Part shown: piece after piece, positions 1 through 58,000 of the stretch
Layout of the letters: each line of letters opens with the position of its first letter
How positions within the stretch are numbered: position 1 is the stretch's first letter
From: Anaeramoeba flamelloides
Lineage: Eukaryota; Metamonada; Anaeramoebidae
NCBI GenBank assembly: GCA_027625915.1
Contig: JANTQA010000063.1
Span: forward strand, 2,852,001 to 2,916,000
Reading direction: 5' to 3'
Length of the DNA: 64,000 nt
Translations under genes and position numbers: made by a program
Notes under the pieces: model-generated
The model's input: the letters and a program-made list of their open reading frames with translations, nothing else
The model's database searches: none
Told to the model about the DNA's origin: nothing

Positions 1-3000
1 TTCAATTGGTTTTCTCTTTCCTCGGCTTTTCTTTTTTCGTTTTCTTCTTTTTTAATTATTTCGTCTCTATTTAATAAATTGTACATTTGCTTAACAATTG
101 AAACGAACGTCGTATTAATGTTCATATTATTTTTGGCCGAGGTTTCAACAAAGCTACAAGATAATTTTTCAGAGAGCATTTTGGCCTTTTGCCTCAATAG
201 TTCTTCATTTTGTTGGTTTTTATTTTTCAAATCGTTTTTATTTGAAGTGATCGCAAATGGTATTTCGTTATAATTTTGTTTCTGCTTCAAGTTTACAATT
301 TTCTTAATATATTTTGTTTCCATTTGATCAAAGAATTGCTCTGTTTGGTCGATTGAATAATTTAGAATAAAGCCATCACATTCGTTGATCCATTTTTCTA
401 AAAATAGTTCATAAATTTGTTCACCGGAAACATCATATATGTGTAATAACATTTCTCTTCCTTCGACGATAATAAATTTATGATGAACATTCTCAATGCC
501 CTGTAAATATTGTGGGTAATAATTCCCATAAATAAACCGATCAACTAATTTTGTCTTGCCAGATTTTTCTGCTCCTAAAACACATATTTTGAATGTTTTT
601 GATTTTGGGAATCCTTCAACAATGCCTTGTATTTGGAATGGTATTCTAATGTCTACTAGATTTGTTATATTGTTTTCATCATCGTTATTATTGTGATTAT
701 TGTGATTATCATAATCATTTTGATCATTGCTTGTATTAATTAAATTTTTATTTTTATTGACAAATTCTTCTAAAATTTCAACACATTTTTCTTGTTGATA
801 CATTTTTGCCATATCTAGTGCAGATTTTTTGTTGTGATCTAAAAGAGAAATATTCGCACCTTTCTCGATTAATATTTTGACTATTTGATAATAGCCATTG
901 CGACTAGCCTTATGCAATGGTGTTAGCCCCTTTGAATCATGTGTATTAATATTACAATCCGGTATTTCAAGCAACCTTGATACTATTTTAAACAGTCCCT
1001 TTGACGCCGCAACTTGTAACACTGTATTGCCCTTTAAGTCCATTGAGTTATAATTGCATTCCTGTGATAATAAAAAGTCAAGTATTTTCAATCTCGTCAA
1101 GTATTGATTAATTATTTCAGAATTGTTTTCAAAGTTGTTGTTATGATTATTGTTGGGGTTGGTGTTACTATTGCTATTGCTGTTGTTGTTGCCGCTGCTG
1201 TCGTTGCTGCCGTTGCTGCTGCTTCTATTACTACTAATGTTGCTAGTTTTACTCTTGTTAATATCGTTATTTTCAGAATTAGTTTTAATGTTATTTTCAT
1301 TATTATTAATATTTTTGTTTTCAGGATTAATAGTTCGATCATTTTTTTTCATTTCATTATCATTATAATTATTATTATTATAATTATTATTATTTTCAAA
1401 ATTACATTCAATTGAATTTAAATATTTTGTTTTCCCCTGGACTGAATAAACTAAGGTCTGTAAAGGATTTGATCCAGAGGCGTCAACAACATTCCAGTCG
1501 ACGTCGTAATCGCTTAGCAATTGTACACAGTCCATATTAATTCCCTTTTGCATCAGCCGATGTAAGGGTGTCCTACCAATTTTATCTTTTAAATTCAGCA
1601 ATTCCTTTGATCCGTCTATACTCAATAGAAAGGAAAGTATTTCTGGGTTGCCCCAAAGACAGACATAATGCAAAACAGAACTTTTATCTTTTGGATCGAT
1701 CATATTTATTTTGGCCTTCTTTTTTTGAAATAATTTTTTGATTTTTTCCAAACTCTTTTTTTTGATGGCTTTAATAAGTTCTTCGTTCATTTCAATTGTT
1801 TCAATATTGTTAATATTATTTCGTTGATTTCTTTGTTTTTCTAAAAATTGTTTTTCTTCTTGATCTTGGATTTCTTTCCAAATATTGAAATACTTTGATT
1901 TTTTTTGTGTTTCTTTTTTTTTTTTTTTTTTTTTTGTTTTTTTTTTTTTTTTTTTTTTTTTATTTTTTTTAAACCCATGTCTGGTCCTATGTTGCTTTTT
2001 GCTGGGTTTTTTTCTAATTGTTTGAATTCTTGGTGTTTTTGGTTCAAATTTTTGATATTTAAATTGACTATTTTCCATATTATTGGCAGTGTACTCTTCC
2101 TCATCAGATAATATTAAAACAGAGTTGCTTCTAATTTTTTTTTTCCTATTAACCCTTTGAAAATCCATATTAGAACTCTTTTCCATTTTTAACTTTTGAT
2201 TTTCATCATCTTCATTATTTTTAATATTATGTAAATTAATTTTTAGATTTTGTTTTTTTTTAACATTTGCTTTATTGTCAGTGGTGTTGGTTTTATTGTT
2301 GTTGTTGTTTGTGGTGGTGGTAATTGTATTATTGTGGGTGTTATTTTTGTTGCTGCTGCTGTTGTTATTATTATTATTATTATCATTATTATTATTATCA
2401 TTATTATTATCATTATCATTATTATCATTATCATTACTATTATTATTGTTATTGTTATCAGTATTATCATTATTTAAATTCTCATTATGGTTCTCATTAT
2501 TAATCTCATTATTGTTCACATTATTTTCCTCGTTATTATTTATTTTCTTATTCAAAATATTTTGGTTTTCATTAAATACATTTGATTCAGAGGTTTCTGA
2601 TTCGGATTGATTTGAAGAATAATCGGAAGATTTTAAAAATTTTTTTTTTAATTCAAGAGATTTAATTTTCTTTTTTTTTTTTTTATTCTTCTTCTTTTTT
2701 GAATAAAAAAGGAATTTATTCTCACTTGTTTTTTTTTCAATTAATTTGAAAATCAAATTAATTTTTTTTTCATTTTTTTTTTGGAGATTTTGTGATCTGA
2801 AATCGTCGATTAGATCATAAATTTTCATTAATGTATTGTTTATCATTAATGCATTAGTAAAATTTTCCATTGACGTATTTGTGATTAAGTTGCCAGAAAA
2901 ATTTAATTTCCTTATTGTTTTATTTTCTTTCAAAATTTTACAAAGTAGTTGTATGTCTGGTGTTTTCAAACGGTTGTTCGAAATGTTTAAGCAAGTCAAT

Positions 3001-3814
3001 TTATCATTTTTTAATAAAGAATTAAATATTTTTGATAAATTTGAGCCAATATAATATTTGTTTTTATCGCCAGAAATATCTAAACTTGTTAAATTAGACC
3101 TTTTATTTTCGAGTAGTAAGCAAATTTCCTTAATGGTTGTTTCGTTTTCTTCATTTGCTTTAATATTTCGCGCCAAAGATAAATTTAATAAACTGCTATT
3201 ATTTTTAAAACTTGCAATAATTAATCCCATTGAAACATCAGTGAATAACACTTCATTTAATTTTAATGACTTTAAGATTTTAGAGTCATATAAATTTAAT
3301 ACTATTAAATGGCAACCTTCAGGTCCTAAATCATTTTTACTTAAATTCAATTTTAAAGATTTTAATGCATTGTTCTCGTTTTTAATTGATAAAATGATGT
3401 TCTTAATAGAATCTAAAGATAATTTGCAATTTTCTAAATTTAATTCATTCATGTGTTTGCTGTTTTCAATAAATTTTCTAATTAATTTACTATCTTTAGA
3501 AGTGATTTTATTGTCAGATAAATTTAAATGTTGTAGGCAGTGAAGGGTGTTATTTAGCAGGACATTAATTAATAAATCAATTTTTATTAAATTACAATCT
3601 TTTAGAATTAAAGATTTTAATTTAATTATTTTATTATTTTCTTTTACAGTGTTTTCTTCCTTGTTCTGGGTATTGTTACTGTTATTGCTGACGCTGCTGT
3701 TGCTGTTAATGTTGTTATTGTTCTTGTTCTTGTTGTTGTTGTTATTGCTGTTGTTGTTGTTATGGTTATTTTCATTATTATTATTATTGGTAGTGGTGGT
3801 GGTGGTGGTGGTGG

Positions 3815-3845
<31 letters not shown>

Positions 3846-5171
3846 ATTGTCATCATCATTGGTAGTGGTGATGTTGCTTTTGATAATGTTATTATTGTTG
3901 TTTTTGACAATTTTATTATTGTTTTCTTTTTTTAATTTTTTATCATTTTTCTGAGGAGAATTATTTTTTTCAATCCAATTCAATAACGCTTGACAACAGA
4001 AAAATCCAAATCTGTTCCCACTTAAGTCAAGAACATTTAATTTGGAAAAGGCAGGTTTCATTAACACTTGGAAAACATTGCCAATTTTGCCATGGAAACC
4101 AATTGAATTCAGCCTTAGTACTTTAAAATATTTGCCAATTTGTTTTTTTTTTCTAATTGAAAATCGTGAGCTTCCGATTTGCCCCAGCATACTTAACAAA
4201 CCGCTTTCGCTGATATTTTTAATATTAATTAATTCGATGCCTGTTAATGAAGAATTGGCATTGTCAACAATTTTATTGCCAAACTCAATTAATAATTCTC
4301 CTGACGCGTAAGTGTTGTTCAAAATTAACGATTTGATCGATTGGTTATATTGCAGGACCTGTGAAAGCAAGGGAATTATTTCTTTGTTATCGCTAATGTT
4401 TTTGATAACTAAATTTTCAAACCAGGTGTTATGCTTGAGTGCGTTAAAGATCGGTTTAAAGTTTGCTTGCTGCTGCTGTTGCTGTTGCAATTTGGGATTA
4501 TGGAAATCGTAAATCTCCTTGGGGCATATTTTGATTGTCTTGTGTCTCTTGTTTGATTGTCTTTTCGATTGTCTTCGCTGATACGTTCGTTCAATGCCGC
4601 TGACAAATTTCTCGTTAGCCATGCAATGGAAAAAGGTACACCATGCATTGTAACTGTTAAGAAACCCATGCCCGGGGTTCTTCACATGGGCCATGTTGAG
4701 TTCGATTTTGGATAGCAGTTTCTTAATCCTGAGCTGCCTTTTTTCTGGTTGCACAAGCACCTCGAGTATTGGCCCAGATCCTTTTTTTTTCCTTGTGTCG
4801 GAGCCATATGTAATGGATCGAAACGCCTGGTAGACAAGCTCAATGAGGCTGTCGGCTTGGTTGGTTTCGACTCGTACAGTGCCCGTCCGAAAATGGAACG
4901 AGATGTCTAAAATGCTCGTGGACTTGATGTAAGAGAGATCGTATAAATGATGGCAATTTGACAAAAACTGCTTTTGACTGATCAGGTGCTTGGATCTTTT
5001 AAACGAGAGATTGCCCTTGTTCTTGCGCTGGTGAATTAGGGATAATCTTGAGGGCGTTAAAAGTAAAAGATACGTTTTTTGCGATCGGCGGCATTCTAAA
5101 TTGTACAAAATTTCCTCTCCAATTTCTTTCGATAACAAATTGTAGTGTTGGATCGTTAATTGTTTATTCAT
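1..5171 (-). CDS. CARMIL-like PH/LRR, ankyrin and Ras-like GTPase fusion protein (3' end outside window)
   Basis: The minus-strand frame opens at an ATG at 5171 and stays open to the window edge, about 1723 codons without an intron. Residues 1-130 resemble the PH-like start of CARMIL-type proteins. About 245-780 are leucine-rich repeats (LNLSDNKI, LNISNNRL, LNFSGNLIT) with a poly-Asn/Thr insert at 414-500. About 814-1107 are low-complexity Asn, Asp and Lys. Ankyrin repeats lie at 1124-1237 (GRTPLHRLM) and 1350-1467 (GLTPLHKAS). A Ras-like domain at about 1521-1690 has G1 GAEKSGKT, G3 DVSGE, G4 NKND and G5 ETSAK; the switch I Thr is replaced by Gln and the Ras Gln61 position is Glu. A charged tail runs off the edge. 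A Gln run (QQQQQQQ) precedes the LRRs. Likely a cytoplasmic signalling or actin-regulating scaffold (inference). The domains are clear; this exact combination I do not recognise. Confidence 0.88.
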
Positions 5172-9610: not shown

Positions 9611-10951
9611 TTATTTCTTTTTGGATGCAGATTTGGTGACCTTTCCTGAAACTTGTTTTCTTTCGATGGCCTTGATGACACCGACGGCGACTGTTTGTCT
9701 CATATCTCTGACAGCGAATCTTCCAAGAGGTGGGTATGAAGTATAGGCTTCAACACACATTGGTTTGGTTGGTTCAAGGGTGACGATAGCGGAGTCTCCG
9801 TTTTTGATGAATTGTGGTTTTTCGTCGAGGACTTCACCTGATCTTTTGTCCATCTTTTTGACGAGAGCGGTGAATTTACAGGCAATATGAGCGGTATGAC
9901 AATCAAGAACTGGGGTGTAGTTGACCTTGATTTGACCTGGGTGGTTCATGACGATGACTTGAGCGGTGAAGTTTTGGATAGCTGCTGGTGGATCGTTTTT
10001 GGAGTCACCTGCGACCATTCCTCTTCTGATGTCCTTAACGGAAATGTTTTTGACATTGAAACCAACATTGTCACCTGGGAAGGCTTCGCTAAGGGTTTCG
10101 TGATGCATTTCGACGGATTTAACTTCAGTGGTGATGTTAACTGGAGCAAAGGTAACAACCATACCTGGTCTGAGGATACCTGTTTCAACTCTACCGACTG
10201 GGACTGTACCGATACCGGAGATTTTGTAGACATCTTGTAATGGGAGTCTGAGTGGTTTGTCTGTTGGTCTTTTTGGTGGGATGACAGTGTCGAGGATTTC
10301 TAAGAGTGTTGGTCCTTTCCACCATTTCATGTTTGTGGATTTTGTGGTCATGTTATCACCTTGGAAACCGGAGATTGGGACAACTGGGACTTTCTTTGGG
10401 TTGTAACCAAGTCTTTTCAAGTATCTGTGGATTTCCTTTTTGATTTCTTCGTATCTCTTTTGAGAGTATTGGACAGATTTATCATCCATCTTGTTGACAA
10501 GGACGATCATTTGTCTGACACCAAGGGTGGAAGCAAGGAGTGCATGTTCCCTTGTTTGTCCTCCTTTGGAGATACCTGTTTCAAAACCACCTTGGGTTCC
10601 GTCAATGACCAATAAGGCAACATCGGCTTGGGAGGTACCAGTGATCATGTTTTTGATAAAATCTTTATGACCTGGGGCATCAATGATTGTGAAGTAGAAT
10701 TTGGAGGTTTCGAATTTCCAGAGTGCAATATCAATTGTGATACCTCTTTCTCTTTCGGCCTTGAGTTTATCTAATACCCAAGCGTATTTGAAAGATCCTT
10801 TTCCCATTTGGTCGGCTTCTTTTTCGTATTTGGCAATGGTTCTTTTATCAATACCGCCACATTTGTAGATTAAATGTCCGGTGGTGGTGGATTTACCAGC
10901 ATCAACATGTCCAATGACAACTAAATTAATGTGTTGTTTTTCTTTACCCAT
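9611..10951 (-). CDS. EF1A: Translation elongation factor eEF1A
   Basis: This 446-residue, single-exon GTPase delivers aminoacyl-tRNA to the ribosome in the cytoplasm. Visible motifs are G1 GHVDAGKS (residues 14-21), the T-loop ERGITID, G3 DAPGH (from about 91) and G4 NKMD, followed by domain II ([13 protein letters not shown]) and domain III ([20 protein letters not shown]), ending SASKKK then UAA. The start at 10951 matches the universal MGKEK N-terminus. Between NMKWWKG and PTLLEILD there is no room for the insertion of about 12 residues found in animals and fungi, so the source is not an opisthokont. Codons are clearly richer in G and C than in neighbouring genes, as expected for a very highly expressed gene. 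Confidence 0.98.
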
Positions 10952-10990
10952 TTGAAGTTAGATTTATAACTATTTTTTTTTTTGAAAAAA
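10952..10990 (-). promoter_or_regulatory. Possible leader/core promoter of eEF1A
   Basis: On the coding strand a run of A precedes TTATAAATC (10961-10969), which lies only 10-18 nt before the ATG. In a sequence this AT-rich a TATA-like word is expected by chance, so this marks where to look rather than a firm promoter. Confidence 0.2.
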
Positions 10991-16120: not shown

Positions 16121-19100
16121 TTAACCAATTTTAACTTTTAGTCGCTCATTTAAAATCTTTTCAGAATTAATTTGGTTTTTTTTTTCGAAATTTTGAGCAT
16201 ATTTTCTAATTTTAAGGTATTCAAATTTTTTTTGATATTTTAAATATGCGTCTTCCATCACACTTTGTAAGGACTTAACATTTGGATCGAACCAAGTTAA
16301 CTCACTATTAGTTAATAAGCAGCTTTCATTAACCCATATACAATTTTTAGGATTATTACAAGGGAAGTTTTCACATTTTACCAACGAAGATTGTATTGAT
16401 AAAGAAGCCTCTGATGGCACCATGTCCTCAAATAAACCATTGGCATGTGTAGTAATTAAAGGAGTACCGACGGCTAAAGATTCTGAAAGTAAATTATCTT
16501 TTGGAAAAACACGGAAAGGCGAGATCAACCAATCTGCGTTAACCAATAATTGGGCAATTTCTAGATGTGATTGGGGATTGAAATCGTCAATAATTTCAAT
16601 TTGATGGCCTCTTTCAAAAGATTTTGGGTAATTAATCCTCTTCAATAAATCAAAAGCAAATTGCTTAGGATTTGGGTTTGAATTTGAATATTGATAAGAA
16701 TATTTATACAGATCATCTTTATCTTTTTTTATATATTTTGGATTTAAATATAAATTAAGATTTGTTACAATTTTTAAAATAATTTTCAAATGCTCTTGAG
16801 GTTCATTATTATTATCATTATCATTGTCATCATTATTGATTTTTTTATTAATTTTATTGATATTGTGAGGTGAAAAGGTCTTTAAAAAGGTATCGATTAA
16901 AACATCTATCCCAGATTGCTTAGAAAAGTCACCATAATAAAGAAAAGTCACAGAACCACCCCCGCTTTTCAATTGTTGAACCTGCTCTGAAAAATAATAA
17001 TCATTAATTAATGGATGGATAGTTTGGATTTTTGAATTAACAACACCTTCTTTCATTAAAACACCCTTTAAATAATTATGGTTTACCCAAATTTCGTCAT
17101 AGTTGTGGTTTATTTGCGCGACCCAACTGCGTGGCAAAGAACCGTAATAATAATGGAATAACAACGTATTTTTTATGTGTTTTAATTGGGATTCAAACGA
17201 AGGTGGGAAAGTGGAATCGATCATTAAATCCAAAGATAATGATTTTTTTTTATAAAATTTAAAACTTTTCGTAAATTCGAGTTCGTCGTTATCATAAAAA
17301 ATATGCCTAGGGTCTGCATTATCGCTTGGGAAAGTTAATAATTCAAATTGATTTGGCATTTTATTATAGATCAAGTTTGCTAACTGTTTGTTTTTTTTTG
17401 CTATATCGATTGGCTTAAATAAATTACCAACCAAGCCAATTGTTTGCTTGATAGGGGGCTTGATATATTTGCAATCATCCAATTGGTTGCCTTTACAAAC
17501 CTCGATTTGAAGCGGCGGGTATTCTACAATTGTTTCTTTTAAACTCATTTGTACCTCTTTCAGATTTTTATCATCCAAACGATAATCATGATCATACTCA
17601 TTATGATAATTTAAATCAATATAATTTTTTTGATATTTATATTTCCATAGATCCATTGACAATAAAGAATTCATCGGAATATTAATCGATTTTTCAAATT
17701 CGTTTGGGGTTCGAAATTTAATTTTTTCATAAAGAAACGGCTTTGAGTTAATTAACATTATTGGGGAATTACATGTAAAAACCTGATATAAATTTAAATT
17801 TGTTTCCATTTGCAATTTATCAGTCTCACTTTTAAAAAGCATTCTTTTACCAGTTTTAATGTCAATGATATAATTGTTGTTATCAATTTTTATACTATCA
17901 TCATTCTTATCAAAATCATCATCATTATCATCAAAATCGAAATCGAAACTACTACTACTACGACCACCACCACCACCACCAACATCACCACCTTTATTAA
18001 AAATGGATAAACAATATAAATCAGTAAATTTTGAATAATTTATTAAATTATTAATTTCGTTTTTATTAAGAATTTGATCAAATATTAATAAAATTTTTTT
18101 ATGATTTAAATTTAATTGGTTTTCAAGAATGGAATTAATTTTTAATAAATTATAATGACTTTTGATTTTTCCAATTCTATTTGCAAGAATTAAGCGGACT
18201 GAAGAAACACCATTCATTTCCTTTAAATATGCTTCAATATTTTTACCAGATTGAAGATATTGGTTATTATTATTTTGCAAATTAATATTTGTTTCTTCAA
18301 CTATTAAAATATTAATATCCAATTTGATGTTCTTCATTTGCAATTTTTTTATTAATACTTTTAAATTACTTTTAAATAAATTCAAATCATTATTAACATT
18401 TTCACCAATCATCAAAACCATTAAATATCTCTTATCATTATTACGATTACCATTATTATTATCATTATTATTACCGTTATTATCATTATCGTTATTATTA
18501 TCCTTTGAAATTGATAAAGAGCGAACAGCCTTTAATAAATTGTTCATTTGGAATTTCTCTCTAATGTGGATATATGCAATTTTTGAGATCGTTTCCCAAT
18601 ATTGCCTGTCGTTTAATAATAAATTAGTAAATTTATTAAAGCAAATTGTATCATAACCATTACAAATTGGCAATTTTTTAGGTTCAATAATATTCAAATC
18701 CAAATTAATTGCCCTCATTGAATCAAAAGTGAAAACAAAGGGCAAACCTCTTTCCATTGAATGCAGATTTTTAGTCGAAATGCCACCAACACCAATTGAG
18801 GGGTTGATCATTATTTTGACAGATGATAGCATTTGTGACAGTTTATTTTCAGAAACGATGCCATGCAATATAATATCCTTTCTATGCGAATATCTTGATT
18901 TTAAGGATCGGCAAATACTGCCAGCAACATGGAAAATTTTGTCTTGGTTGTTAGGCAGTTTATCAAAAACGTTTTCGATAAACCATGCAAATGGCTGGAC
19001 AATTTCAGGGTTGTTGTAACTGAAAAAAATAAACCCGTTCCTTTTTTCAAATGGCAAGACCAACGGATCGGTTTGGTAGGCATTTTTAATTTCAATTAAT

Positions 19101-20029
19101 TGCTTATCCTTCTGAACATCGGGATTAAATTTGATTAAATTATTATTTTTGCTTTTATGATTTGAATTGTGATTTTCTTTTGGTATCACAACATATGGCA
19201 AAATGGACATGTCCTTTTTCCGGTGTGGCAATTCCTTTTCGATATCTTTGAGATTTTCGTGCGATAAAAAGGTCAACTTGTCAGACTCCCTTAGGATCCT
19301 TAATGTGCCATATTTGATTAATTGCCACGAGGGATGCAGCCAATCGTAATCCTTTTTGAGATTTGCACCCTTTTCCGAGAGGTGCTTGAACCTTTGCCAA
19401 TGCAGCTCGTCGATCAAGGTTATGATTTCGCAATTTGGTGAATGCTTTTTCAAATCCTTTAAAAAATCATTCAGCCATTCCCAATATTTGATTGTGGGCC
19501 AAAAAAAGAAGACTGCCTTTTCAATAGACTCGTAGCCCTTAATGCTCTGCAGGTTTTTTGGCCGAATGTAGACCTCGGTGCCAAACTCTTCTCGTAAATA
19601 CTTTAAATGATACCTCCTTTGCACCCTTTCCTTTTGGTACGACAAATAGACAGGCGAATAGCCTTCAGATCTGAGCGCTGTTATTAAATGTGAAAAGCGT
19701 AGATCAGATCCCTTGCGATCAAACAAGGGCACAGTGAAATGCAATAATAAGATCCTGCCTCGGTACGTGGTGTTTTGGTAGCTGTGCTGAAAATTCTTTA
19801 TGCTGACGCCCGGATCAAAACTTGGATCTGTTTTGATAAAGAATGTAGACACAAGAACCAAAAAGGTTACAAAGATCAAAATTTGCACAAATTTTTTGGT
19901 TGAGGCATCGCTTGAGGAATATTTTGGGTGATTCGAGAAATTTTCTTCATAGCTTTGATTGCTTGGTACAGAACTGTTGTAATCTAAAACAGGTCCTGTT
20001 TTGAAATATTTCTTAAAAGGTTTTAACAT
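16121..20029 (-). CDS. Membrane-anchored protein with two GT-B (GT4-like) glycosyltransferase modules
   Basis: A single-exon gene of 1302 residues ending VKIG then UAA. After about 46 polar residues a single hydrophobic helix (about 47-64, ILIFVTFLVLVSTFF) suggests a type II membrane protein with lumenal catalytic domains, probably in the Golgi or ER (inference). The first GT-B module spans about 85-500, with a C-terminal half containing HGIVSENKLSQ and INPSIGVGGISTKNLHSMERG. An Asn-rich linker follows (about 515-540), then a weaker alpha/beta region (about 545-720) interrupted by Gly and Asp runs. The second module is at about 850-1290 and has NADWLISPF and ESLAVGTPLITT, typical of GT4 sugar-nucleotide sites. 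Donor, acceptor and linkage cannot be told. The N-terminal 800 bases are much more GC-rich than the linkers. Confidence 0.8.
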   Translation of the reverse strand: MLKPFKKYFKTGPVLDYNSSVPSNQSYEENFSNHPKYSSSDASTKKFVQILIFVTFLVLVSTFFIKTDPSFDPGVSIKNFQHSYQNTTYRGRILLLHFTVPLFDRKGSDLRFSHLITALRSEGYSPVYLSYQKERVQRRYHLKYLREEFGTEVYIRPKNLQSIKGYESIEKAVFFFWPTIKYWEWLNDFLKDLKKHSPNCEIITLIDELHWQRFKHLSEKGANLKKDYDWLHPSWQLIKYGTLRILRESDKLTFLSHENLKDIEKELPHRKKDMSILPYVVIPKENHNSNHKSKNNNLIKFNPDVQKDKQLIEIKNAYQTDPLVLPFEKRNGFIFFSYNNPEIVQPFAWFIENVFDKLPNNQDKIFHVAGSICRSLKSRYSHRKDIILHGIVSENKLSQMLSSVKIMINPSIGVGGISTKNLHSMERGLPFVFTFDSMRAINLDLNIIEPKKLPICNGYDTICFNKFTNLLLNDRQYWETISKIAYIHIREKFQMNNLLKAVRSLSISKDNNNDNDNNGNNNDNNNGNRNNDKRYLMVLMIGENVNNDLNLFKSNLKVLIKKLQMKNIKLDINILIVEETNINLQNNNNQYLQSGKNIEAYLKEMNGVSSVRLILANRIGKIKSHYNLLKINSILENQLNLNHKKILLIFDQILNKNEINNLINYSKFTDLYCLSIFNKGGDVGGGGGGRSSSSFDFDFDDNDDDFDKNDDSIKIDNNNYIIDIKTGKRMLFKSETDKLQMETNLNLYQVFTCNSPIMLINSKPFLYEKIKFRTPNEFEKSINIPMNSLLSMDLWKYKYQKNYIDLNYHNEYDHDYRLDDKNLKEVQMSLKETIVEYPPLQIEVCKGNQLDDCKYIKPPIKQTIGLVGNLFKPIDIAKKNKQLANLIYNKMPNQFELLTFPSDNADPRHIFYDNDELEFTKSFKFYKKKSLSLDLMIDSTFPPSFESQLKHIKNTLLFHYYYGSLPRSWVAQINHNYDEIWVNHNYLKGVLMKEGVVNSKIQTIHPLINDYYFSEQVQQLKSGGGSVTFLYYGDFSKQSGIDVLIDTFLKTFSPHNINKINKKINNDDNDNDNNNEPQEHLKIILKIVTNLNLYLNPKYIKKDKDDLYKYSYQYSNSNPNPKQFAFDLLKRINYPKSFERGHQIEIIDDFNPQSHLEIAQLLVNADWLISPFRVFPKDNLLSESLAVGTPLITTHANGLFEDMVPSEASLSIQSSLVKCENFPCNNPKNCIWVNESCLLTNSELTWFDPNVKSLQSVMEDAYLKYQKKFEYLKIRKYAQNFEKKNQINSEKILNERLKVKIG

Positions 20030-20332
20030 TTTTTTTTCTTTTTTTTTTTTTTTGGGTTTTACAAAATTAGAGACAACCCAACAGATGACAAAAAATGATT
20101 TGAAAAGTGATTTTTATGTGGAATTAAACACTTGTTTATTATAAATAATATGCTTAATTGAATATTACCAAATAAGGTTATAAAATTCTAAATTGCTTTG
20201 ACTCAAACATTCAAAGATTTAGATTTTTTGTTAAATGTTCTTTGGAAGCAACCAAATGGTTACTAATGATTGATCGTCGAAACATCACGATAATTAATAC
20301 TTTGTTTTTGTTTCAACTCAAGTTGTTGAACT

Positions 20333-27404: not shown

Positions 27405-30065
27405 TTATTTTTTAATTTTTTTAATTGTTGATTTATATTTCCTTATTCTTAATAAAGAATTCTGGATATTATGGTAATCAATATTGCTTTTATTTATAGT
27501 TTTTGACAAATCTCTAAAAAATTGATAATAAACAGTTAATCTTCTTATTGGGATTATTACGAATTCAAAAAGATTTAATTCTGTAGGGAAGCGTTTTTTT
27601 TTGTTTAAAATAAATTGTTTTATTGTATCTTCTTCAGATAATTTCACTTTTAATATTGAATTGAATTTTGTTATATCTTTGTAATAACTAATATAAACAA
27701 TCATTTCATTAGAATAATCAATAAAATTACCGTAGATGGTCTTTTCTTTAGATTCTTCATCTTTGCTTTTGAACTGGGAGCTAGTATTATAATTTTGGAT
27801 AATGTTTGCCAAATCTTGAGTAAAACTTGAACTTAAAGAAGTCATTTTTTCTAATATTTTTAATAAGTGGCTTATTAATTTGTCATCCATGACATTTAAT
27901 TCTTGAATGGGCTTTAAATATTCCTTAACAAAAAAATTCATTTGGGAAAGATATTCTATTTCTGACTTTGAAATACTATCCAAGATATTTCTTTGCTTAA
28001 AAGCCATTTTATATTTATTTTTTTGAGTATAAGTTTTTAATAATTTTTGAATTTTAAGAATAATAATCTCATCATATTCACTAATATCAATACTGTTGAA
28101 TTCTTTATTATTATTTCCAGAAAGTTGAATTTCTTCGATAGCTTCAATATTTTTTTTTTTATCATTATCATTATCATTATCATCAACATCATCATTATCA
28201 TTTCCACTACCAATGTCAACATTGTTATTGAAGTTATCACTTTGACTGGTTTTATTAATGTCATCATTGTTATTAATACTATTAACACTTTGTTTCGTTT
28301 TATTTTTTATTTCATTTGTTAACAAATCAATTTTCTCGGAAAGTTTATTATTAGAATCTTTTAATTGCGAAATATAACTTTCATTTTCTTTTTGTTTTAA
28401 TTCCAATTCTTCTTGTTTTTTGAGAAACTCTAAATTAGATTTTTTATTTAATTGGATTTTTTTTTCTAATTTGATATTTAATTTTTCAATTTTTGTAAAA
28501 CTATTATTTTTTTCTTTTAATTCATCCTCTTTATTTGCAAGATCCGTTTCGAATTTTTGTTTCATTTGTTTAAAAAGGTTTTCGTTTTTTTTTATTCTTA
28601 ATTTAAATTGGAGGTTAGTTTTTTTAAAATTTAACAATTTTTTTTTTAATGTACTCAATTCATTTGACTTGTAATTATCCCCTTCATTATTTAAATAATT
28701 CTGATAACTCTCAAAATTGTTTCCTTCGTTTGATTCTGTTTTTATTTCTTCTTTCCCTTTTCCCATTTCTTTTCCGTTTTCCTCTTCTTGTTCCTTCTCC
28801 CTTTCCCTTTCCCTTTCCCGTTCACTTTCCTTTTCTAATTCTAATTTTTGCATTTTTTGTTCGCATAATTCTTTTTCTTTTTTGAAATTTTCAATTTCCT
28901 TTTGCAATTCCTGGATTGTTTCTTTTTTTTTTTCAATTTCGAGATCTTTCTCTTTTAATAGTGAACCATTATTCAATTTTAATTCCTCAATTTTTTTCTC
29001 AAACAATTGCTTTTCTTGTATTAGCTTTTCATTAAATTGCAGTTCACAATTATTTAATTTCCTTTCAATTTCTTTTTCTTTTATTTGATATTGGCTTTCA
29101 ATTTTGGAGATCTCAGTTTGACTTGTATTAATTAATTCACTTTTCTGTGTTTCAATTTCTTTTTTTAAGTTTAAAATAATATTTTCTTGTTCTTTATTTT
29201 TGAGAATTAATTCTTTTTCAATTTTTTGCAATTCATTATTACTTTTTTCATAATTTTCATTTTGCTCATTTAATTTAGTTCCTTTTTCAATTAATTCCTT
29301 ATTATCGCTTATTTGTTTTTTGAGTTCTTCTTTTTGCTTTAAATATTTTTCTTTCAGATCAACGATCTCTTTCTTTGTTTCTTCAATTTTTTTATTTTTA
29401 TTTTTCACTAACGTTTCTGCTGACTGGAACATTTCAGCTAATTCATTCCTTTCACCTCGCAATTTTTCAATTCTTTCTTTAGTTTTTTCTTTTTCAGTGT
29501 CATAATCTTCAATTGTCTCGGTCAGGATTTCTAATTCGGTATCTTTGTCCTCTATTTGGTTTTCAAATGAATTTACTTTCTTGATTATTAAATTTTTTAA
29601 TTTTTTTATTTGTAATTGGCTTGAGGTTAACTTTTCGATTTGTCTTAGTTCCTTTTCAATTTCACTGTTTTTATGCTCAATTTCATTTTGGATTTCTTCA
29701 TTATTCAATCCGTGGGTATTCCCTTCTCTACTTGTTTCTTTTTTTTGTTTTTGTTCTTGACTAAATTTTTTCTTTGTGTTTGTTTTAGTTTTTGTCTTGG
29801 TTTTTGGATTTTTCTTTTTTATTTTTGTTTTGGTCTTTGTCTTTGTTTTTGGGTTTGTTTTGGGTTTTGGGTTTGGATTTGAGTTTGGGTTTGGGTTGGT
29901 GTTGGGAGTCTTTGATTTTGTTGTATTATCTTTTGCACGAATGTTAATAGCTTTGGATCGGTAAAGTGTTCGGACTTCCTTATTCGAAGATCCGCTAGTC
30001 TTAAATAACTTTCGGTTTGTATTTTTACGTCCAGATTTATAATTCGTGATTTCTGTTGTCATCAA
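27405..30065 (-). CDS. Coiled-coil protein with C-terminal RhoGEF (DH-like) domain
   Basis: A single exon of 886 residues ending IKKIKK then UAA. Residues 1-115 are basic, with Pro/Asn and then Thr/Lys repeats (NPNPNSNPNPKPK, KTKTKTKTK). About 115-640 is a long Glu/Lys-rich heptad coiled coil, with an RERERERE tract and an Asn/Asp-rich break after it. About 690-870 looks like a Dbl-homology domain: a CR1-like helix ILDSISKSEIEYLSQM, then LSSSFTQDLANII, YYKDITKFNSIL and a CR3-like LFEFVIIPIRRLTVYYQFFRDL. DH domains exchange GDP for GTP on Rho-family GTPases. No PH domain follows, since the frame stops about 20 residues after the domain. A divergent DH fold is the best reading. Target GTPase and partners are unknown. 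Confidence 0.75.
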   Translation of the reverse strand: MMTTEITNYKSGRKNTNRKLFKTSGSSNKEVRTLYRSKAINIRAKDNTTKSKTPNTNPNPNSNPNPKPKTNPKTKTKTKTKIKKKNPKTKTKTKTNTKKKFSQEQKQKKETSREGNTHGLNNEEIQNEIEHKNSEIEKELRQIEKLTSSQLQIKKLKNLIIKKVNSFENQIEDKDTELEILTETIEDYDTEKEKTKERIEKLRGERNELAEMFQSAETLVKNKNKKIEETKKEIVDLKEKYLKQKEELKKQISDNKELIEKGTKLNEQNENYEKSNNELQKIEKELILKNKEQENIILNLKKEIETQKSELINTSQTEISKIESQYQIKEKEIERKLNNCELQFNEKLIQEKQLFEKKIEELKLNNGSLLKEKDLEIEKKKETIQELQKEIENFKKEKELCEQKMQKLELEKESEREREREREKEQEEENGKEMGKGKEEIKTESNEGNNFESYQNYLNNEGDNYKSNELSTLKKKLLNFKKTNLQFKLRIKKNENLFKQMKQKFETDLANKEDELKEKNNSFTKIEKLNIKLEKKIQLNKKSNLEFLKKQEELELKQKENESYISQLKDSNNKLSEKIDLLTNEIKNKTKQSVNSINNNDDINKTSQSDNFNNNVDIGSGNDNDDVDDNDNDNDKKKNIEAIEEIQLSGNNNKEFNSIDISEYDEIIILKIQKLLKTYTQKNKYKMAFKQRNILDSISKSEIEYLSQMNFFVKEYLKPIQELNVMDDKLISHLLKILEKMTSLSSSFTQDLANIIQNYNTSSQFKSKDEESKEKTIYGNFIDYSNEMIVYISYYKDITKFNSILKVKLSEEDTIKQFILNKKKRFPTELNLFEFVIIPIRRLTVYYQFFRDLSKTINKSNIDYHNIQNSLLRIRKYKSTIKKIKK

Positions 30066-30824
30066 ATTCTTTTTTCTTTTTTTTTAAATAAAGTCTCAGT
30101 TCAAACTAGGAAAAATGGAGCTAAAAAATATTCGTGGTCAGATCAAAAAGCGAACAAATATAATTTTTGAAAAAACAAAAAGTAAAAATAAAAAAATGTA
30201 AAAGAATTTTGTCGCTTGTTACAAAGAGATTTCGGAATTCAACACCTCTTGGTTTGAAACAAATTTCTACTTTATTTTTGAGAATCAATCGTGACATTTT
30301 GTTAAAGTTTCCAATGAGAAAGTGAAAATTTTGATAATTTGTGAAAGTTCAATTACTTTGCAAACACATTGGGATTATTTTCCAAAATATAAATCAGAAA
30401 AGTAATTTTCTTTTTTAATTAATTTATTTTTTAACGATTATATGACATTTTAAGGATAGTGGTAACTAAAAAAGATCTACTGTACATTCTTAAAGCTAAT
30501 TGTTAATGAGGTATTTTGTTTTTTAGGAACTTTTATTAGCAGCTGAGAAAAAATACTTTAAAAAGACAAAAAGGGAGTTTTTTTCATCAACTTTTTATTT
30601 TTTGGTTTCTTTGATAAATTCTCACTGAATAAAAGCAATGTAATTAAGAGGATTGAATTGCCAAAGCGAAACTCAAAACTAATGAAAGATATCTGTTCTC
30701 CAAAACATTTTAAAGGTTAAAAATTTTATGTATCTGTTACTCTTAATGGGATGAGTTACACCAGAGTTCCAACAATAACAAAGTATTATGAAATAGGAAT
30801 GTAAATGATCTTCGATTTTTAATC

Positions 30825-35679: not shown

Positions 35680-38600
35680 TTACCAATCATATAATAATGA
35701 CATTGCTCTGGAAGTAAAAATTTTAACTTTTTTTTCTTGGTCCTTTAATAAATTAATTAATTTTTCGGAAATTTGCCCTGTATTTATTTGTTTTTTCAGA
35801 TCCTTGGGCAAATTTCTTAAAAAGAAAACAAATAATAAAGAGGAGTTGGCTCTAAACTGAACATTATTATCTGTGAAATAATCCAATATTGTGACATAAT
35901 TAGCGGAAATTTTGTTGGTGAATGAATTGATTGAATTCAAGGTTAATTTATCGAGCATTAGTTCATAGTCTACGTTTCTATTTATTTGGAAAATATCTGT
36001 TTTCACGAAATCTATAAAAGATTTATTGTTTGTTGTGAAGGCGAATTTTTTCAGAGCGTATTTGGCAGCCTTTTGAACAGTCGGGTCAATATCGTTTAGC
36101 AATATTGTTAACAAAACAAAATTCCTGTGGAATTGCTCTGCGAGTGCTAGCTGGTCTTTTTCGCTATCCTTCGCGTATCTGGCCAATGAAGCAAATAGTT
36201 CCAAAGAGGCGATTCTCATTTTGGGATCTTGGCTGATAAAGATATTTGAAACTCTCATGCACATTGAGATCAAATGGGAAGACACCAAATCCACGGATAG
36301 CACGTTCAATAATCTTTTGATATTGGTCATTGCCTCAAATACGATCAGGGGCTTTTTATGCTCTAAAGTTGGCATTAGGACACCAAATATCGATCCGACG
36401 AATTTGTCGAGGGCTTCCTTGTTTTCGACAAAGCAAATGTGGCCCAACCCCCTGAGCGATTCTGTTGCCACCTTAATGCATGGATCGGATTGGCACGTAT
36501 ACAGGCATGTTAAAATATTACTTAACAGCTTGATATTATTACCCATATGCTTGACTAATTCTGCAAAGATTGCGGTCGCAATCCTCCTGTGGATTTCTTG
36601 GGTCTTGGTTAAATGCGGATAAACAAATTCGCATATTTTAATTAATTTCTCTGGCCTTTGATTGGCAATTGAAGAGATAATTATTGCTATTCCTCTTTCA
36701 AAAAAATCCGAATTCAATAATTTCCATCCATTCGTTAGCCCTAATTTAAATTCCTCCGGCTCATAAATTTGAATATTTTCGTCCTCGTCCTCATCTTCCT
36801 TTTCTTCATTTTCGTTCTCGTTCTCTTTCTCATTCTCATTCTCATTATCTCGAATAATTTTTTTTTTATGATTTTGTAATTCAATTAAATGCTTACCTTC
36901 GTTAGTTAAATCTAAATTTAAATCTCTAATTATTTCTGTATCTTCTGTAGACTGTGCAAATTGCTTTAGCGTTTCAATTGCTTGATTAATTGGCGAAGCA
37001 AATCCCATTAATTTATTTTCTTCCACCAATCCTGAGCATAGGCCAATTCTAAATAATATTGAGCATAAACAACGCGCATAATTTTTATTTAACCATTCGT
37101 CATCACTTTTATTAATTAGTATTTTTAAGGCGCAAATCGAAGACTGTGGTAAAACCGACGCACGGGTTGTTAAAATTTGCTTTTCAATGTTACTACTACT
37201 ACTATTATTATTATTATTTGAAGATTTTTTTTTTTTGCTTTTTTTTGACGATTTCTTCTGATCTTCTTGTTTGATGGTTTCAGTTGGTTCCGAATTATTA
37301 ATTATATTGGTGATTTGTAAAAAGAAATTAGGAAGCAAATCCTTGTTCGAAATAATTGAAATAATAAAATCTGTGCAAGTTTTTGTTAACGGTGGCTTGT
37401 TAGATAATAGCAATCTATATATTGGTGCTTGGTTATAAGAAGCGATTGTCTGTACTGTTAATAAAATAATTTTTTTCGAACTAAAATGCTCAACATCTGA
37501 AAACTTTTTCAATAGCCTCTCAAACAAGTCAAGAACGTTATTTTCGAGTTTCTCTTTGCCCTTCGCTAACAAGGATTCGTTTAATATTAACGACGCGCAA
37601 TACGAGCTTGACTGGTGCTTATCGGAAATGCCCACAGCAATTAATGTTTTCATGCAATCGATAAATTCATCTGGCGATAATAAAATGGATAGGAATTTCG
37701 AAATTGATTTACAAATATGCTTGATTGATTTTTTATCTTGCTCAAAGTCTAAATGTAAGTGTTCCTTTAGTTTTTTCAAGGTTTGCAATGGCTCCGGTGG
37801 TTCATCTTTTTCGAATAATTGTTTGTGCTTTGTAGAATTTTTTCTTGTCAAGAAATCAAGATAAAATAAATTCCAAAAGATTTCAAAGGACAAGTTACGT
37901 ATTTCGTGTACAGGATCAAATAATTTTGATAGGACTGATCCCATGATTAATCCAATACCATTAAACTTTTTGGATTGAAATTTGGGGTTTAATTTGCCTA
38001 ATTCGCTCCGTTGGAATTTAATATTTTGGTATTCAAATATTATTTTTAATAGGCAATTTAGGCTTCTTTTCCTATGAAGGGTAATTGAGGATAAGAAATG
38101 GTGCTTTATTAAATTGAAAAAGTTTTTGATCATTCTTATTTTAGTTTCCTGCTCTAATATTGAAATAAATATCGAATTAATATTATTAATTAATGTATCG
38201 ACTTCGTCTTTTTGATTATTAGAATTGGTACTACCATTATTATTGCTGCTGCTGCTGCTGCTGGTGGTGGTGTTGGTCGTGGTGGTGGTATCAAGATTAA
38301 TATTATTTATATTATCTATATTTTGCAAATTTTTATTTGAAGATAGCTCTTGCTTTTCTTGTGCCTGCTGTATTTTAATTTTCCTTAATTTTTTACTAAA
38401 TACTTGATTAGTCAATTCAAGAGTGGTGCCGATATCCCATAATTCAATTAATTTATTTATCAACGTTTTCCTTTCGGTTTTACCTAACGGTGGTACGCAT
38501 TGAATTAGGGAATTGATTGCAATCACACAATTCAATTTAAATTGATTTACCGAATTAATTTCGTTTTCATAGCCATATTGATCATCATCATCATCGTTAT

Positions 38601-39610
38601 TATTGTTCTTTTTTGAATTTTTGCTATTGCCATAATATTTGGTATTGATCAAATTGATGGAATTTTCGATATTTTTTTTAATATTGTTCTCATTTAAATA
38701 ATTTATTAGTAATAAAATATAATCATTTCTTTCTTCAAATTTATAATTAGTATCATTGTTTAACTGCTTAAAGGCGATGGCTAAATTATTTAAAAAATTT
38801 ATTATTCGTATCTGTGAGACAAAATCCCGAGTTCCCTTAATTAATGGCATTATTAATTGCAATATTTCGAGTTTGTAATTTGAAAAAACAGATCTTACTT
38901 GCCCGTTTCTTGCCACCTCACCCAGGGAAATTAAAACCATCCCGCGTACACCAGTCTGATCAATGCCCCTTAATTTTTTTTTACTTTTAATGAGTCGAGA
39001 GCCCTTTTTTAATACCTCGTCGCGTGCTATTTGTAATAAAGTTTCATGTACCTTAGATAGATGCTTTGTACTGATATATCCGCAACATTTAGCAAATGCA
39101 CTGTGGTCGTGCCCGATTTCTGGAATTTGCTTTGTATATATAAAGTATAAAAATTCTGAAATTAAATTTTTAGTAATTGAATGCTGAAGCGCGAGGCCAA
39201 ATAATCTTGTTATCGATTGCTTTAATTTCCATTCTTCTCTGTTTTCGCAATAAATATAAAATTCTCGTAATGTTGTGCATAATTTTTGGGTATATTGATT
39301 TTCATCTATTTGAATAATTAGTTTTGAAAAAAATTGCTCAATACGAGTCATCCATTCACTGAGATTTAAATCATATTTATTTTGGTTATAATAGTTAATT
39401 AATTTTGGGATTTCTTGATTACAAAGATCCACGATCGATTTATGTAATATTATTGAAATGGATTTCAATACATTTAATCCTTCAATACAATCAACGCAAT
39501 TGGAACTAACATAGGATAAAATTCGAATTAAAATAAATTGTGGTGTTGGTAAATTCACTAAGCTTTTGAAATCTATTAAATAAGCCTTCTTTTTCCTTTT
39601 TTTTTTCTTC

Positions 39611-39642
<32 letters not shown>

Positions 39643-41078
39643 TTTTTGATTATTTTCGTCATCGCTATTTTCGTCATCTTCATTTTCTTCCTCTTTTTCT
39701 TTTTCTTTTTCCTTTTCTTTTTCTTTTTCTTCTTTTTCTTCTTTTTCAAAATTTTCAATTTTTTTGTCAATTAAAAATTTGCTAGATTTAAAAATAACCG
39801 GTAATGCTTCTGAATATTGTTGCTTTGCCATAAATTCCAAAATGTTTGGCCACAATATATCTTCAACTTCAGAAATTGAACGCGACATCAATGTAAGAGC
39901 TCTCCCACAATAGTTTTTAAATTGTAAAGGAGAAACCTCAGCTGGCTGATTGGGGTCGTTTTTTTTATTTCGTTTTTTTTTTTTTGACTTTCCGTGCTCC
40001 ATTTTGTATTTGTTGATCACCTTTCCAGACGTGGCAGCTCCCTTCATTAAAAAGTCAATCAGGACATTGCCTCCGCTCAATTGTAAATAATTATTGCTGC
40101 CCATCGTTACAATTAAATCTATGAGCGAATATTGGAAACTTAACGGTTGCTGTACATTTTCGCAGGCCTTTTTACAGGTGGTCACTACCAACTGTTTCGA
40201 AGTGGAAATGTCCTTGTCGCAATGGGTGACAACGTGCTTTAGAATTAAGGTTGCGCCAACCTTGGAGCCAATGGATTTGTCTTCCAATTTGCTAAAGGTC
40301 AAATTCAAAATGGAATTGATATTGATCTTTGCTAAAAACGTGATGCACTCCAAGATGCTTTTGTAAGCAGAATAGCCGTCGGGGTTTATCGATGTGTCGG
40401 GGGGCGCGCCCGTTAACAAGAAGCTATGCAGGGTTTTAAAAATGGAATTAAATAAGTCATTATTTAATGTCGCCTTACATGCGAAAATGGCTTCAAGAAT
40501 CTTATTTAAAGATTCCGAGTACCTCTTTGTATTGTATCCGTTTTTCCGATCTGAGACTAAGAGCTTGAGAATGTTCTGAATAATTTTATTCAAATTCTTT
40601 TCTAACATCATTTTGTTTAAAATTAATGTGATGGATCCTAACGCACTTGCAGACTCACACCTTAATTTCGAATTCTTTCTTGAGATATAGCCGCTCATTA
40701 ACAGGTCACACGAAGACTGGAAATCAGACTGATAACTTTGCTGAGTAATCGTGCGATCTTCAGCCAAGTCCTTGTTTATCAAATAGTGATGTAAGCCATC
40801 TGCCAGCTGGCCAATGACCCTCGCAACAACAACCCTTTGGTAATCCTTTTTAATTTTGGGAAACAATAAGATAATCCGCTTGAGAAAATCGCCTATGAGC
40901 GGGATTGTTTGAAGTGGGTTGTGGACAACAAATTCCCCTAAGAGATGAAGTAATTGGAAATTTGGTATTTCTCGGATCGGGATACGCACAATTAACGTTT
41001 CCTGAATTGGCCTTGCAAATTTCTTCCCGAGTGCAATTATTATTTTACACGTTGGTGTTGTTTCTAATTTTTTTGGTA

Positions 41079-41116
<38 letters not shown>

Positions 41117-41656
41117 TGTTTTTGAGATGGTTTTTTCAGAAGGTTGATTAAAAGAACGTAGGAAAGGATAAGAAGTGGTTTTTTTTTTTTTTTTTTTGTG
41201 GTTGGAAAGGTTGATTGAAAGAAGGTAGGTAAGGATAAGAAGAAGTTTTTTTAAAGTTTGGAAAGGTTGCTTTAAAGATGATGGAAAGGATAAGAAGAAA
41301 ACAATTACTTTTTCACTCACAATCTTGTTAATACAAAATTGAATTATCTTGATTCCGATCCCAGACGAAATTTCATCAATGTTCTGCTCAACCATAATAG
41401 AAAACGTCGAAACAAGTCTCGGCTTGAGATCCTTTGGAAGCTCTGTTCTTAACAAATAGTCCAAAAGTGAAGATAAAACCAGCTGTGTTTGGTGTTTACA
41501 GATATCTTGAAGTGAGCTAAGCATATATTGCTGTACTTGAACATCTTGTGAGGGTATTGAAATTAACAACTCTTTAACAAAATCGTCAATTAGTCCTCCT
41601 GTTGACAAAGTTAAATCTTGTTGGTGAGTTTGTAGTTTTTTTTTGAAAACATTCAT
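35680..41656 (-). CDS. MROH1: HEAT-repeat protein of the Maestro/MROH1 family (two exons)
   Basis: Proposed exons are 41656-41309 and 41079-35680, joined in frame for 1915 residues ending LLYDW then UAA. The product is helical HEAT repeats throughout. The N-terminal part (ALGKKFARPIQETL ... IPNFQLLHLLGEFVVHNPL, then CDLLMSGYISRKNSKLRCESASALG) and the C-terminal repeats resemble Maestro heat-like proteins, which in animals have been linked to lysosomes. Inserts include an acidic tract then about 17 Lys at roughly residues 562-612, and Asn/Ser/Thr-rich stretches near 1040-1070 and 1420. The C-terminal conserved part is more GC-rich than the inserts. No enzymatic motif is visible, so a scaffold role is likely. 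GCN1 was considered, but size and N-terminus fit MROH1 better. Confidence 0.75.
41080..41308 (-). other. Intron of the MROH1-like gene with tandem repeats and an A35 acceptor tract
   Basis: The intron is 229 bp, donor GTAATTG and acceptor AAAAAG. It keeps phase 0 on both sides (GAA AAA before, GTA CCA after). On the coding strand 35 consecutive A lie directly before the acceptor G. The rest contains three imperfect repeats of about 55-60 bp built on CTTCTTATCCTTTCC and ATCAACCTTTCC. An upstream GTGAGT is an alternative donor. Confidence 0.65.
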
Positions 41657-55081: not shown

Positions 55082-58000
55082 TTATATATTATTTTTATTT
55101 ACATCAAATGACTGATCAATTGAATCTAATTCAAGATCAAAATCAATTTTTTGAGAACAAATTGAATTGGTATTTATATTTTCAAAGGTGCCAAATAATT
55201 TTTTTGTGCATTTGATTTTTTTATTCAGTCTTCTTCTTCTTTTGGGTGTTGGTGATGAAAGATGATGCAGCAGTGTTTTGGGTTTTATTGTAATAATTGA
55301 AGTAACTTTATTCTTGTTCTTATAATTTTTATCGCTGTAGTTGCTCTTGCTTTTAAAAATATTTTTTTTTTCGATATTTTTGTTTGCATTTTTGATATTA
55401 TTATTATTATTTAATAAATTTTCAAATTCATCATCTTCCATCAATAAATGTGTTTTTGAATGGGTTCTGATTCGAGGAAACCGTTGAAATTCTTCTTCCA
55501 ATAAAATTAATTTTTTTTTCTTTTTACTTTTTTTATTCAATTTCTTTTTCTTTTTGCATTTTTTTTCTTTTTTCTTGTCATTGCTCATACTCTTATTCTT
55601 GCTCGTGCTGTGATTCTTGTTCTTATTATTGTTCTTGTTCTTATTCGTGCTCTTTTTTGTGTTTTTTCTTTTCTTTTTTAATTTTTTATTCTTATTTTTT
55701 GATTGTTTGGTATTTAAATTTTTTAAACCGTTTTCAATAATTTCAATAGAATTTTCATTCAGTTGTTTTTCAAAAAAATTAAAATCAGAATATTCCAAAT
55801 TATTATTTGCATTATTATTAAATCCATTAAAAAGGTTATTGTTCACATCTTTTCGATTTGGATTTAAAATGTTTTCTTCGCCAATGATATTATGATTTAT
55901 ATTGGTTTCTTTTCCATCGTTTATAGATTTGTTATATTTTTTCCTTGAACAAACGGAACCAAATACTGTTTTTACTTTGGAAAAAAGATTGTTTTTTAAA
56001 ATGTTTGTTGTGCCGTAGTTATTCGCTGCTTCCTTTTTATTTTTTAGATTTTTGATATTTGGAGGTGAAAATCTTTGATCCCAGGAATTGCCAAACTTTT
56101 TTTTTAATAAGCCTACAATGTGTTCTTGGTGAAAAAGTTCATCAAGACTCGCTCTTTCGTTTTCATCAACAAGCATCATTTTGATAATTATGTCCTTTAG
56201 CTCTTTTGATCTTTGACATTTATATGGCAATCTTGTTTCTTTAGTAATTGATCGCAATTGCTCCCAAAATTCGCCACCGGTGGGTAATTCGGCATCGCCA
56301 ACTGATAATTGATAAATAGTTGCCCCTAAGCTATAAATATCATAGGTTTTTTTTGCCGGTACATAATTAAATACCTCACCCAATGCGTTAGGTGCAAGGT
56401 ATCTACTGTCACCATCTTCAAATTCTTCTCCTTCTTTGATCATGTTACCAAAATCGCAAAGTTTATATTTATTCTTATGAATTAGAATGTTTTCTGGCTT
56501 GATATCCATATGTACAAACCCCTTTGAGTGGATGAATTCTAAGGCCTTTTATGATTTAATTTTATTTCATAAATAATGGTATATATATTTTTTGTTAGAT
56601 TTTGTTCAGAAATAGAAATAAAAAATGAAAATTAATTCAAAAAAGATGAAGGTTCAATATTTAAAATCATTTTTATTTTTTTTTTGTGTTTGTGTATATT
56701 CCCAAAAAAGTGGACACACATTATTATAATAAAAAATTTTTTTCGTTGACATTTAGAACAAGATCAAAAAAAAAAAAGTAAATTGGCGCAAGCTGTTTTT
56801 AAAAATGTGCAGACCAAAAGTTTTCTAGGTGGTACTTAAAGTGACTTTTCCAACGTTTTAATTGGTTTTGTAGACTTTAAAACTTTTTAGTACTCACTTT
56901 TTTAAAACAACTGTTAACAGTTATTTTCCAATTAATAAATGAATTTTTTTTTATTTCAAGAGAACAAATATTGTACAATGTAATAGTCGAAAAATATTCA
57001 AACACCCTCGAAGACGAAATAAATGAATATTTTTATTCCAAGTTACAAATAAATTTTTCAATGAATTAGTGATTGAGAAAACCCAAAGATCTTTTCAAAA
57101 TCAATCGAAAATATTTTTAGAGATTGAATTTAAACTTCCTTATGGAACTTTGAGAGGAAGCTTTTCATTAAGAAAATTTGATTTTGACAGTATTTAGGTT
57201 CTTTCACAAAGCACAAACAATTTGGATCTACTTTTATTATCAAAATATTTAAAGTTGTTTTTGGAGATCTCAAAAATAGTTAAATTGATCAGCAAATTTT
57301 TAATACTGGTGTTTTGGAATAATAAATGGGAAATATTTTCAATTCCTCGACTAAATTTTTCTTTTCCAAAAAGAGTCTCAAAAAAGAGGGTTATAGTTTG
57401 GTTCTTTATGTAAGAAAAAGGAAATTGATAATTAATTAAAATTTTTCCCCATTTATAATTCAAATACCAGCAATCGATCAATCAAAGCAAAACCCATTTT
57501 TAAAAAGTTAGTATTCAAAAAACTGTTTTTGGGGTTAATCCTTTATTTTGTCTTGATTCATTTATTTTTTCTTATATTAATTGATTTTACTTTTCATTTT
57601 CAGGTTTTGAATTATTGTTTCTCAATTAAAAATCTTGTTGATCTTTATTTCCTGTTTAACTTTTTTTCCCAAGATACTTTTTGACCAAATGTAATAAAAA
57701 AACGATCAGAATCGGGTTTTAACAAATGTAACGATCACTGAAATCTAGTAGGGAAGCACCCTCTCTTGTTATTGAGCAAAAATGAAAAGAAAAAGAAAAA
57801 AAAAAAAAAACATACCAAAAGAGAGTCTGTTAATATTTCCCAAATTTGTTCTTCGGGCAAAATTTGTTGATTTTCAAGAGTTTTATTTAAGCACTGTTCG
57901 AGGGATCCGCCTTCACAATACTGAGAAACTATACACAAAGAACCAAATTCTTCAAAGGCACATTTTGTTCTGACCACATATCTTGAACCTAATGATTTTG

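Follow-up and report, generated by a model that had tools for sequence, protein, structure and literature searches.

CARMIL proteins are regulators of capping protein at membranes. All of them are said to possess PH-like, leucine-rich repeat (LRR), HD, Pro and CPI domains (PMC9270954), and the CPI motif is said to be kept in protozoan CARMILs (PMC13208823). A precedent for a CARMIL with an acquired GTPase-regulating domain is CARMIL-GAP of Dictyostelium (PMC9270954). Roco proteins, including LRRK1 and LRRK2, constitute a second point of comparison since LRR, ankyrin repeats and a Ras-like domain are likewise united there within a single chain (PMC6337361). The gene considered here belongs to Anaeramoeba flamelloides (Metamonada). 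It occupies the left end of a stretch of 64,000 nucleotides, hereafter called the window (assembly GCA_027625915.1, contig JANTQA010000063.1, positions 2,852,001 to 2,916,000 of the forward strand), and is read from the minus strand.

A preliminary description of this DNA placed LRR, two ankyrin blocks and a Ras-like domain in one frame, and this was confirmed here by Pfam and PDB matches: a CARMIL-like LRR region, ankyrin repeats and a Ras-like domain share a single stop-free frame. As in Dictyostelium CARMIL-GAP, a CARMIL-type scaffold would have gained a small-GTPase signalling domain. CARMIL-GAP, however, harbors a RhoGAP domain and a working CPI motif (PMC9270954), whereas here it is the GTPase-like domain that forms part of the chain, and no CPI motif is seen in the visible part. 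Its likeness to CARMIL1 (LRRC16A; PDB 4k17 and 9ec0) lies in the LRR region, where CARMIL1 was the top PDB match of each block, in colinear order. It differs from CARMIL1 by the absence of a CPI or proline-rich part from the visible chain and by the addition of the ankyrin repeats and the Ras-like domain. The domain combination seems unusual, its parts being familiar; searches aimed at such a fusion retrieved none among open PubMed Central papers, judged by the starts of their abstracts. The passages on GTPases in the paper on the Anaeramoeba symbiosome (PMC11550330) have no bearing on the present protein.

Open frame and domain layout

The frame ran without a stop from position 5234 to position 3 of the minus strand (1744 codons), with its first ATG at 5171. 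The product is at least 1723 residues long and, as the frame is still open at the left edge of the window, its C-terminus is missing. For a random frame of 1723 codons to stay open at the base composition of the window, log10 P was approximately -66, a value that leaves aside the Asn/Lys-rich bias. The chain displayed, in order, an N-terminal region, LRR with an Asn-rich insert inside, a low-complexity stretch, ankyrin repeats interrupted by a second Asn-rich insert, and the Ras-like domain:

4692..5171, minus strand: N-terminal region, residues 1-160, no domain identified (Pfam, pairwise tests, low-confidence models)
4470..4691, minus strand: linker with GHGF...Y segment, residues 161-234 (shuffles)
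3957..4469, minus strand: LRR block N, CARMIL-like, residues 235-405 (best PDB match CARMIL1 4k17)
3627..3956, minus strand: Asn/Thr-rich insert, residues 406-515, 48% Asn (ends set by eye)
2802..3626, minus strand: LRR block C, CARMIL-like, residues 516-790 (LRR_6; best PDB match CARMIL1 4k17)
1812..2711, minus strand: Lys/Asn-rich low-complexity stretch, residues 821-1120, 26% Asn and 20% Lys (composition)
1437..1799, minus strand: ankyrin block 1, about residues 1125-1245 (Ank_4 best stretch 1133-1183; outer ends by eye)
1116..1424, minus strand: another Asn-rich insert, roughly residues 1250-1352 (Asn making up 43% of residues 1251-1355)
756..1106, minus strand: ankyrin block 2, about residues 1356-1472 (Ank_2 best stretch 1361-1443; PDB ankyrin matches, e.g. 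1366-1475)
72..599, minus strand: Ras-like domain, residues 1525-1700, Ras positions 12, 13, 28, 35, 59 and 61 altered (PF00071; KRas and Rap2A alignments; position audit)
3..71, minus strand: charged tail, residues 1701-1723, truncated at the edge of the window (translated frame)

Eight Pfam families matched the whole chain at E 1 or better, namely five ankyrin models, Ras, Roc and LRR_6. All five ankyrin models exceeded their own cut-offs (Ank_2: E 8.2e-33, 113.3 bits against a cut-off of 27.3), and the assignments of the Ras and ankyrin parts are firm. In NCBIfam, the sole match covered the ankyrin part and fell far under its cut-off (MzaA, 40.2 versus 800). A scan of prokaryote genomes returned at least two loci, a Ras-like one from Lokiarchaeia (28% identity) and an ankyrin one from Aquimarina (33%), neither of which was informative; residues 1-198 found no match in a scan of viral contigs.

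Leucine-rich repeats and affinity to CARMIL

LRR_6 remained under its cut-off when the whole chain was searched (21.9 versus 23.4 bits) and passed it with four stretches when residues 515-820 were scanned alone (26.1 bits). The preliminary description regarded these repeats as CARMIL-like, and the PDB matches agree with it, CARMIL1 ranking first for both blocks. With residues 1-405 as query, for which seven sequences were retrieved at E 10 or better, residues 235-388 matched residues 205-350 of CARMIL1 4k17 (E 0.0092), followed by 9ec0 (E 0.11) and, in third place, tropomodulin (E 0.22). For block C, which retrieved 28 sequences at E 1e-4 or better, residues 530-784 matched residues 379-637 of 4k17 (E 8.2e-13).

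Both matches were thus colinear in CARMIL1 (205-350, then 379-637). Once the 110-residue Asn-rich insert, with ends set by eye, was removed, the gap between the blocks amounted to about 32 residues, versus 29 in CARMIL1, and the joined blocks gave a single alignment covering CARMIL1 208-629, in which 112 of 411 aligned positions were identical. None of 1000 shuffles reached the pairwise score of either block against CARMIL1. The scores of 97 and 190 fell to 51 and 94, respectively, in the rest of CARMIL1 once the matching region was masked. The linker preceding block N contains a GHGF...Y segment which resembles, by eye, the segment preceding the repeats of CARMIL1; its score alone was weak, being reached by 15 of 1000 shuffles, while that of the linker with the first repeat was reached by none of 1000.

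Several results weigh against a CARMIL affinity. Ribonuclease inhibitor was level with CARMIL1 in the whole score of block C (51.6 versus 51.7 bits, E 8.7e-13), and the repeats could therefore be generic LRR of the ribonuclease-inhibitor type. A query limited to residues 112-289 ranked CARMIL1 last of five PDB matches (E 1.1). When the repeats were rotated, which is a stricter control than shuffling, the scores averaged 75.5 and 158.1 against native values of 97 and 190, and the native score was reached at four of 141 and one of 245 cut points. No CPI motif better than chance was present in the visible chain, the best candidate, at residue 120, agreeing with 4 of 7 positions and all others with at most 3; within residues 761-1120 the best value was 3, as in 479 of 500 shuffles. 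Finally, the CARMIL PH domain proposed by the preliminary description is unproven: in Pfam, residues 1-188 had no match up to E 10, and in seven pairwise tests against the PH region of CARMIL1 the score was reached by 253 to 938 of 1000 shuffles, none of the tests being significant. The structure prediction suggested at the time gave two single-sequence AlphaFold2 models of the N-terminus, which were unusable (predicted local distance difference test, pLDDT, of 35.2 and 34.6); the succession of strands and a helix in one of these low-confidence models looks PH-like, which at such pLDDT is no evidence.

In the best single stretch of block C, CARMIL1 scored 44.6 bits versus 32.4 for ribonuclease inhibitor. 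Overall, a CARMIL-like LRR region is likely, a generic one of the ribonuclease-inhibitor type being the less probable reading. Regulation of capping protein in the manner of CARMIL, implied in the preliminary description, was not supported. Besides the absence of a CPI-like motif above chance, the 1723 visible residues displayed one P-x-x-P and no PP or PxP, and thus no proline-rich segment. For these two reasons the protein is not filed here as a CARMIL; the missing C-terminus would leave room for a CPI motif. No helical homodimerization domain, which in CARMIL comes after the LRR, was identified, no search having been aimed at it; Asn plus Lys make up 46% of residues 821-1120.

Ras-like domain

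Family PF00071 (Ras) matched residues 1528-1697 with E 1.2e-26 (93.6 bits against a cut-off of 21.6). Among the best 60 of 490 matches to solved chains, the nearest by sequence were KRas, Rap2A, Rheb and RalA. Motifs G1 (GAEKSGKT), G3 (DVSG), G4 (NKND) and G5 (ETSAK) are kept. Switch I lacks its threonine and a glutamate occupies the position of Gln61, as first described. In KRas numbering, the position audit revealed Glu12, Lys13, Tyr28, Gly35 (Gly1558), Ser59 and Glu61 (Glu1584), of which Glu12, Lys13, Tyr28 and Ser59 had not been named before. Wild-type KRas has Gly12; the KRas chain used in the audit carries Asp at this position. Tyr32, Ile36 and Glu37 were kept. The domain thus displayed the motifs of the Ras superfamily and a clear family match, and lacked the canonical Thr35 of switch I and Gln61 of switch II.

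Comparable substitutions are encountered in atypical Rho-family GTPases. A tyrosine at the position of Phe28 is shared with RhoU and RhoV, where it is tied to fast exchange, and a residue other than glycine at position 12 with Rnd and RhoH, where the missing Gly12 is tied to constitutive activity (PMC13236570). The likeness has its limits, as these four are Rho-family small GTPases, whereas the nearest listed chains are here Ras, Rap, Rheb and Ral and the domain sits inside a scaffold. The slow GTPase cycle of the preliminary description is accordingly retained as one option only, Tyr28 going with fast exchange and the loss of Gly12 with constitutive activity. PseudoGTPases were grouped into non-binding proteins, proteins that bind without catalysis (Rnd) and proteins with retained catalysis (RGK) (PMC5593906), and the present domain would best be placed in the second group. 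Judged by its likeness to Rnd and RhoU, the domain may be atypical and predominantly GTP-loaded rather than just a slow switch. Against this reading, Q61E in Ras raises, rather than lowers, intrinsic hydrolysis, and Rheb also lacks Gly12.

Proposed function and alternative explanations

From the observed domains, their order and their residues, we infer nucleotide state, localisation and partners as follows. The explanation favored here, tentatively and at somewhat less than even confidence, is that of a protist signalling scaffold born from domain fusion, in which LRR and ankyrin repeats would set location and partners and a mostly GTP-loaded Ras-like domain would offer a binding surface to an effector or to the rest of its own chain. 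The LRR would anchor the protein at the actin-rich cortex or tie it to partner proteins, additional partners would be bound by the ankyrin repeats, and the Ras-like domain would bind GTP without normal cycling. Residues Glu12, Tyr28, Gly35 and Glu61 would bring about fast nucleotide exchange and escape from ordinary GTPase-activating proteins (GAP), leaving the domain mostly GTP-loaded like Rnd and RhoU, so that output would be set by the location and amount of the protein. Loss of Thr35 may also mean a non-classical effector or contact with the protein's own chain. A bolder version, in which a CARMIL-derived actin scaffold would bear a permanently GTP-loaded Ras-like domain in cis, with effector recruitment tied to scaffold location instead of switching by guanine nucleotide exchange factors (GEF) and GAP, is unlikely.

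The same residues could also be those of a pseudoGTPase, serving as a structural or binding module whose nucleotide state is irrelevant. Switch I is without Thr35, neither position 12 nor position 61 has its canonical residue, and p190RhoGAP, a large cytoskeletal regulator, retains Ras-like folds as pseudoGTPases within its chain (PMC5593906). In contrast to p190RhoGAP, the present protein kept G1, G3, G4 and G5, and this alternative is considered rather unlikely.

Those intact binding motifs, together with Tyr32, Ile36 and Glu37, would suit a working switch, which opens or closes the scaffold depending on whether GTP or GDP is bound and whose substitutions are tolerated or compensated. Five positions of the Ras cycle (12, 28, 35, 59 and 61) are however changed together, which makes a working switch improbable.

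A frame that joins two separate genes, or that stems from a faulty assembly, would be compatible with the 72-base T-rich tract at 1899-1970, which separates the LRR from the ankyrin repeats, and with an uneven GC content at third codon positions (0.45 for residues 1-405, 0.21 for residues 516-800, 0.36 and 0.30 for the ankyrin blocks, and 0.30 for the Ras-like domain). As no stop interrupts the 1744 codons, no intergenic stretch is visible between the domains, and such an artefact is very unlikely.

Least probable, by a small margin, is a Roco-type protein with a Roc GTPase and a COR domain past the window edge: LRRK1 and LRRK2 do share LRR, ankyrin and Ras-like domains with the present chain and Roc did match (E 1.8e-9), but Ras outscored Roc (93.6 versus 38.3 bits), the order in LRRK1/2 is ankyrin, LRR, Roc (PMC6337361), unlike that found here, and only the charged 23-residue tail follows the Ras-like domain before the window edge, with no COR visible, so that the protein is not filed as Roco.

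Neighbouring frames

Other frames of the window, all on the minus strand, included one for eEF1A (448 codons, 9614-10957) and one of 1330 codons (16124-20113) whose sole match was glycosyltransferase PF13692 (E 4.1e-10, residues 375-462). A RhoGEF-domain frame of 892 codons (27408-30083; PF00621, E 6e-15, residues 703-886) lies about 22 kb from the present gene. It is followed by a Maestro (MROH2B-like) HEAT repeat frame of 1856 codons (35683-41250, E 5.5e-45). A protein kinase was distributed over two frames at 55085-58418, with profile positions 2-104 at 57738-58418 and 109-261 at 55085-56548, which suggests an intron no longer than about 1.2 kb. The eEF1A, RhoGEF, Maestro and kinase frames point to a eukaryote, and that of eEF1A is of use for placing the organism. 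The window displayed no Rfam match at gathering thresholds and no ARAGORN match.

Significance

If the favored scaffold explanation holds, the association of CARMIL-like repeats with an altered Ras-like domain would reveal a further way in which protists connect GTPase signalling with an actin scaffold. It would also be a case in which the possibility of a constitutive GTPase module acting in cis could be tested.

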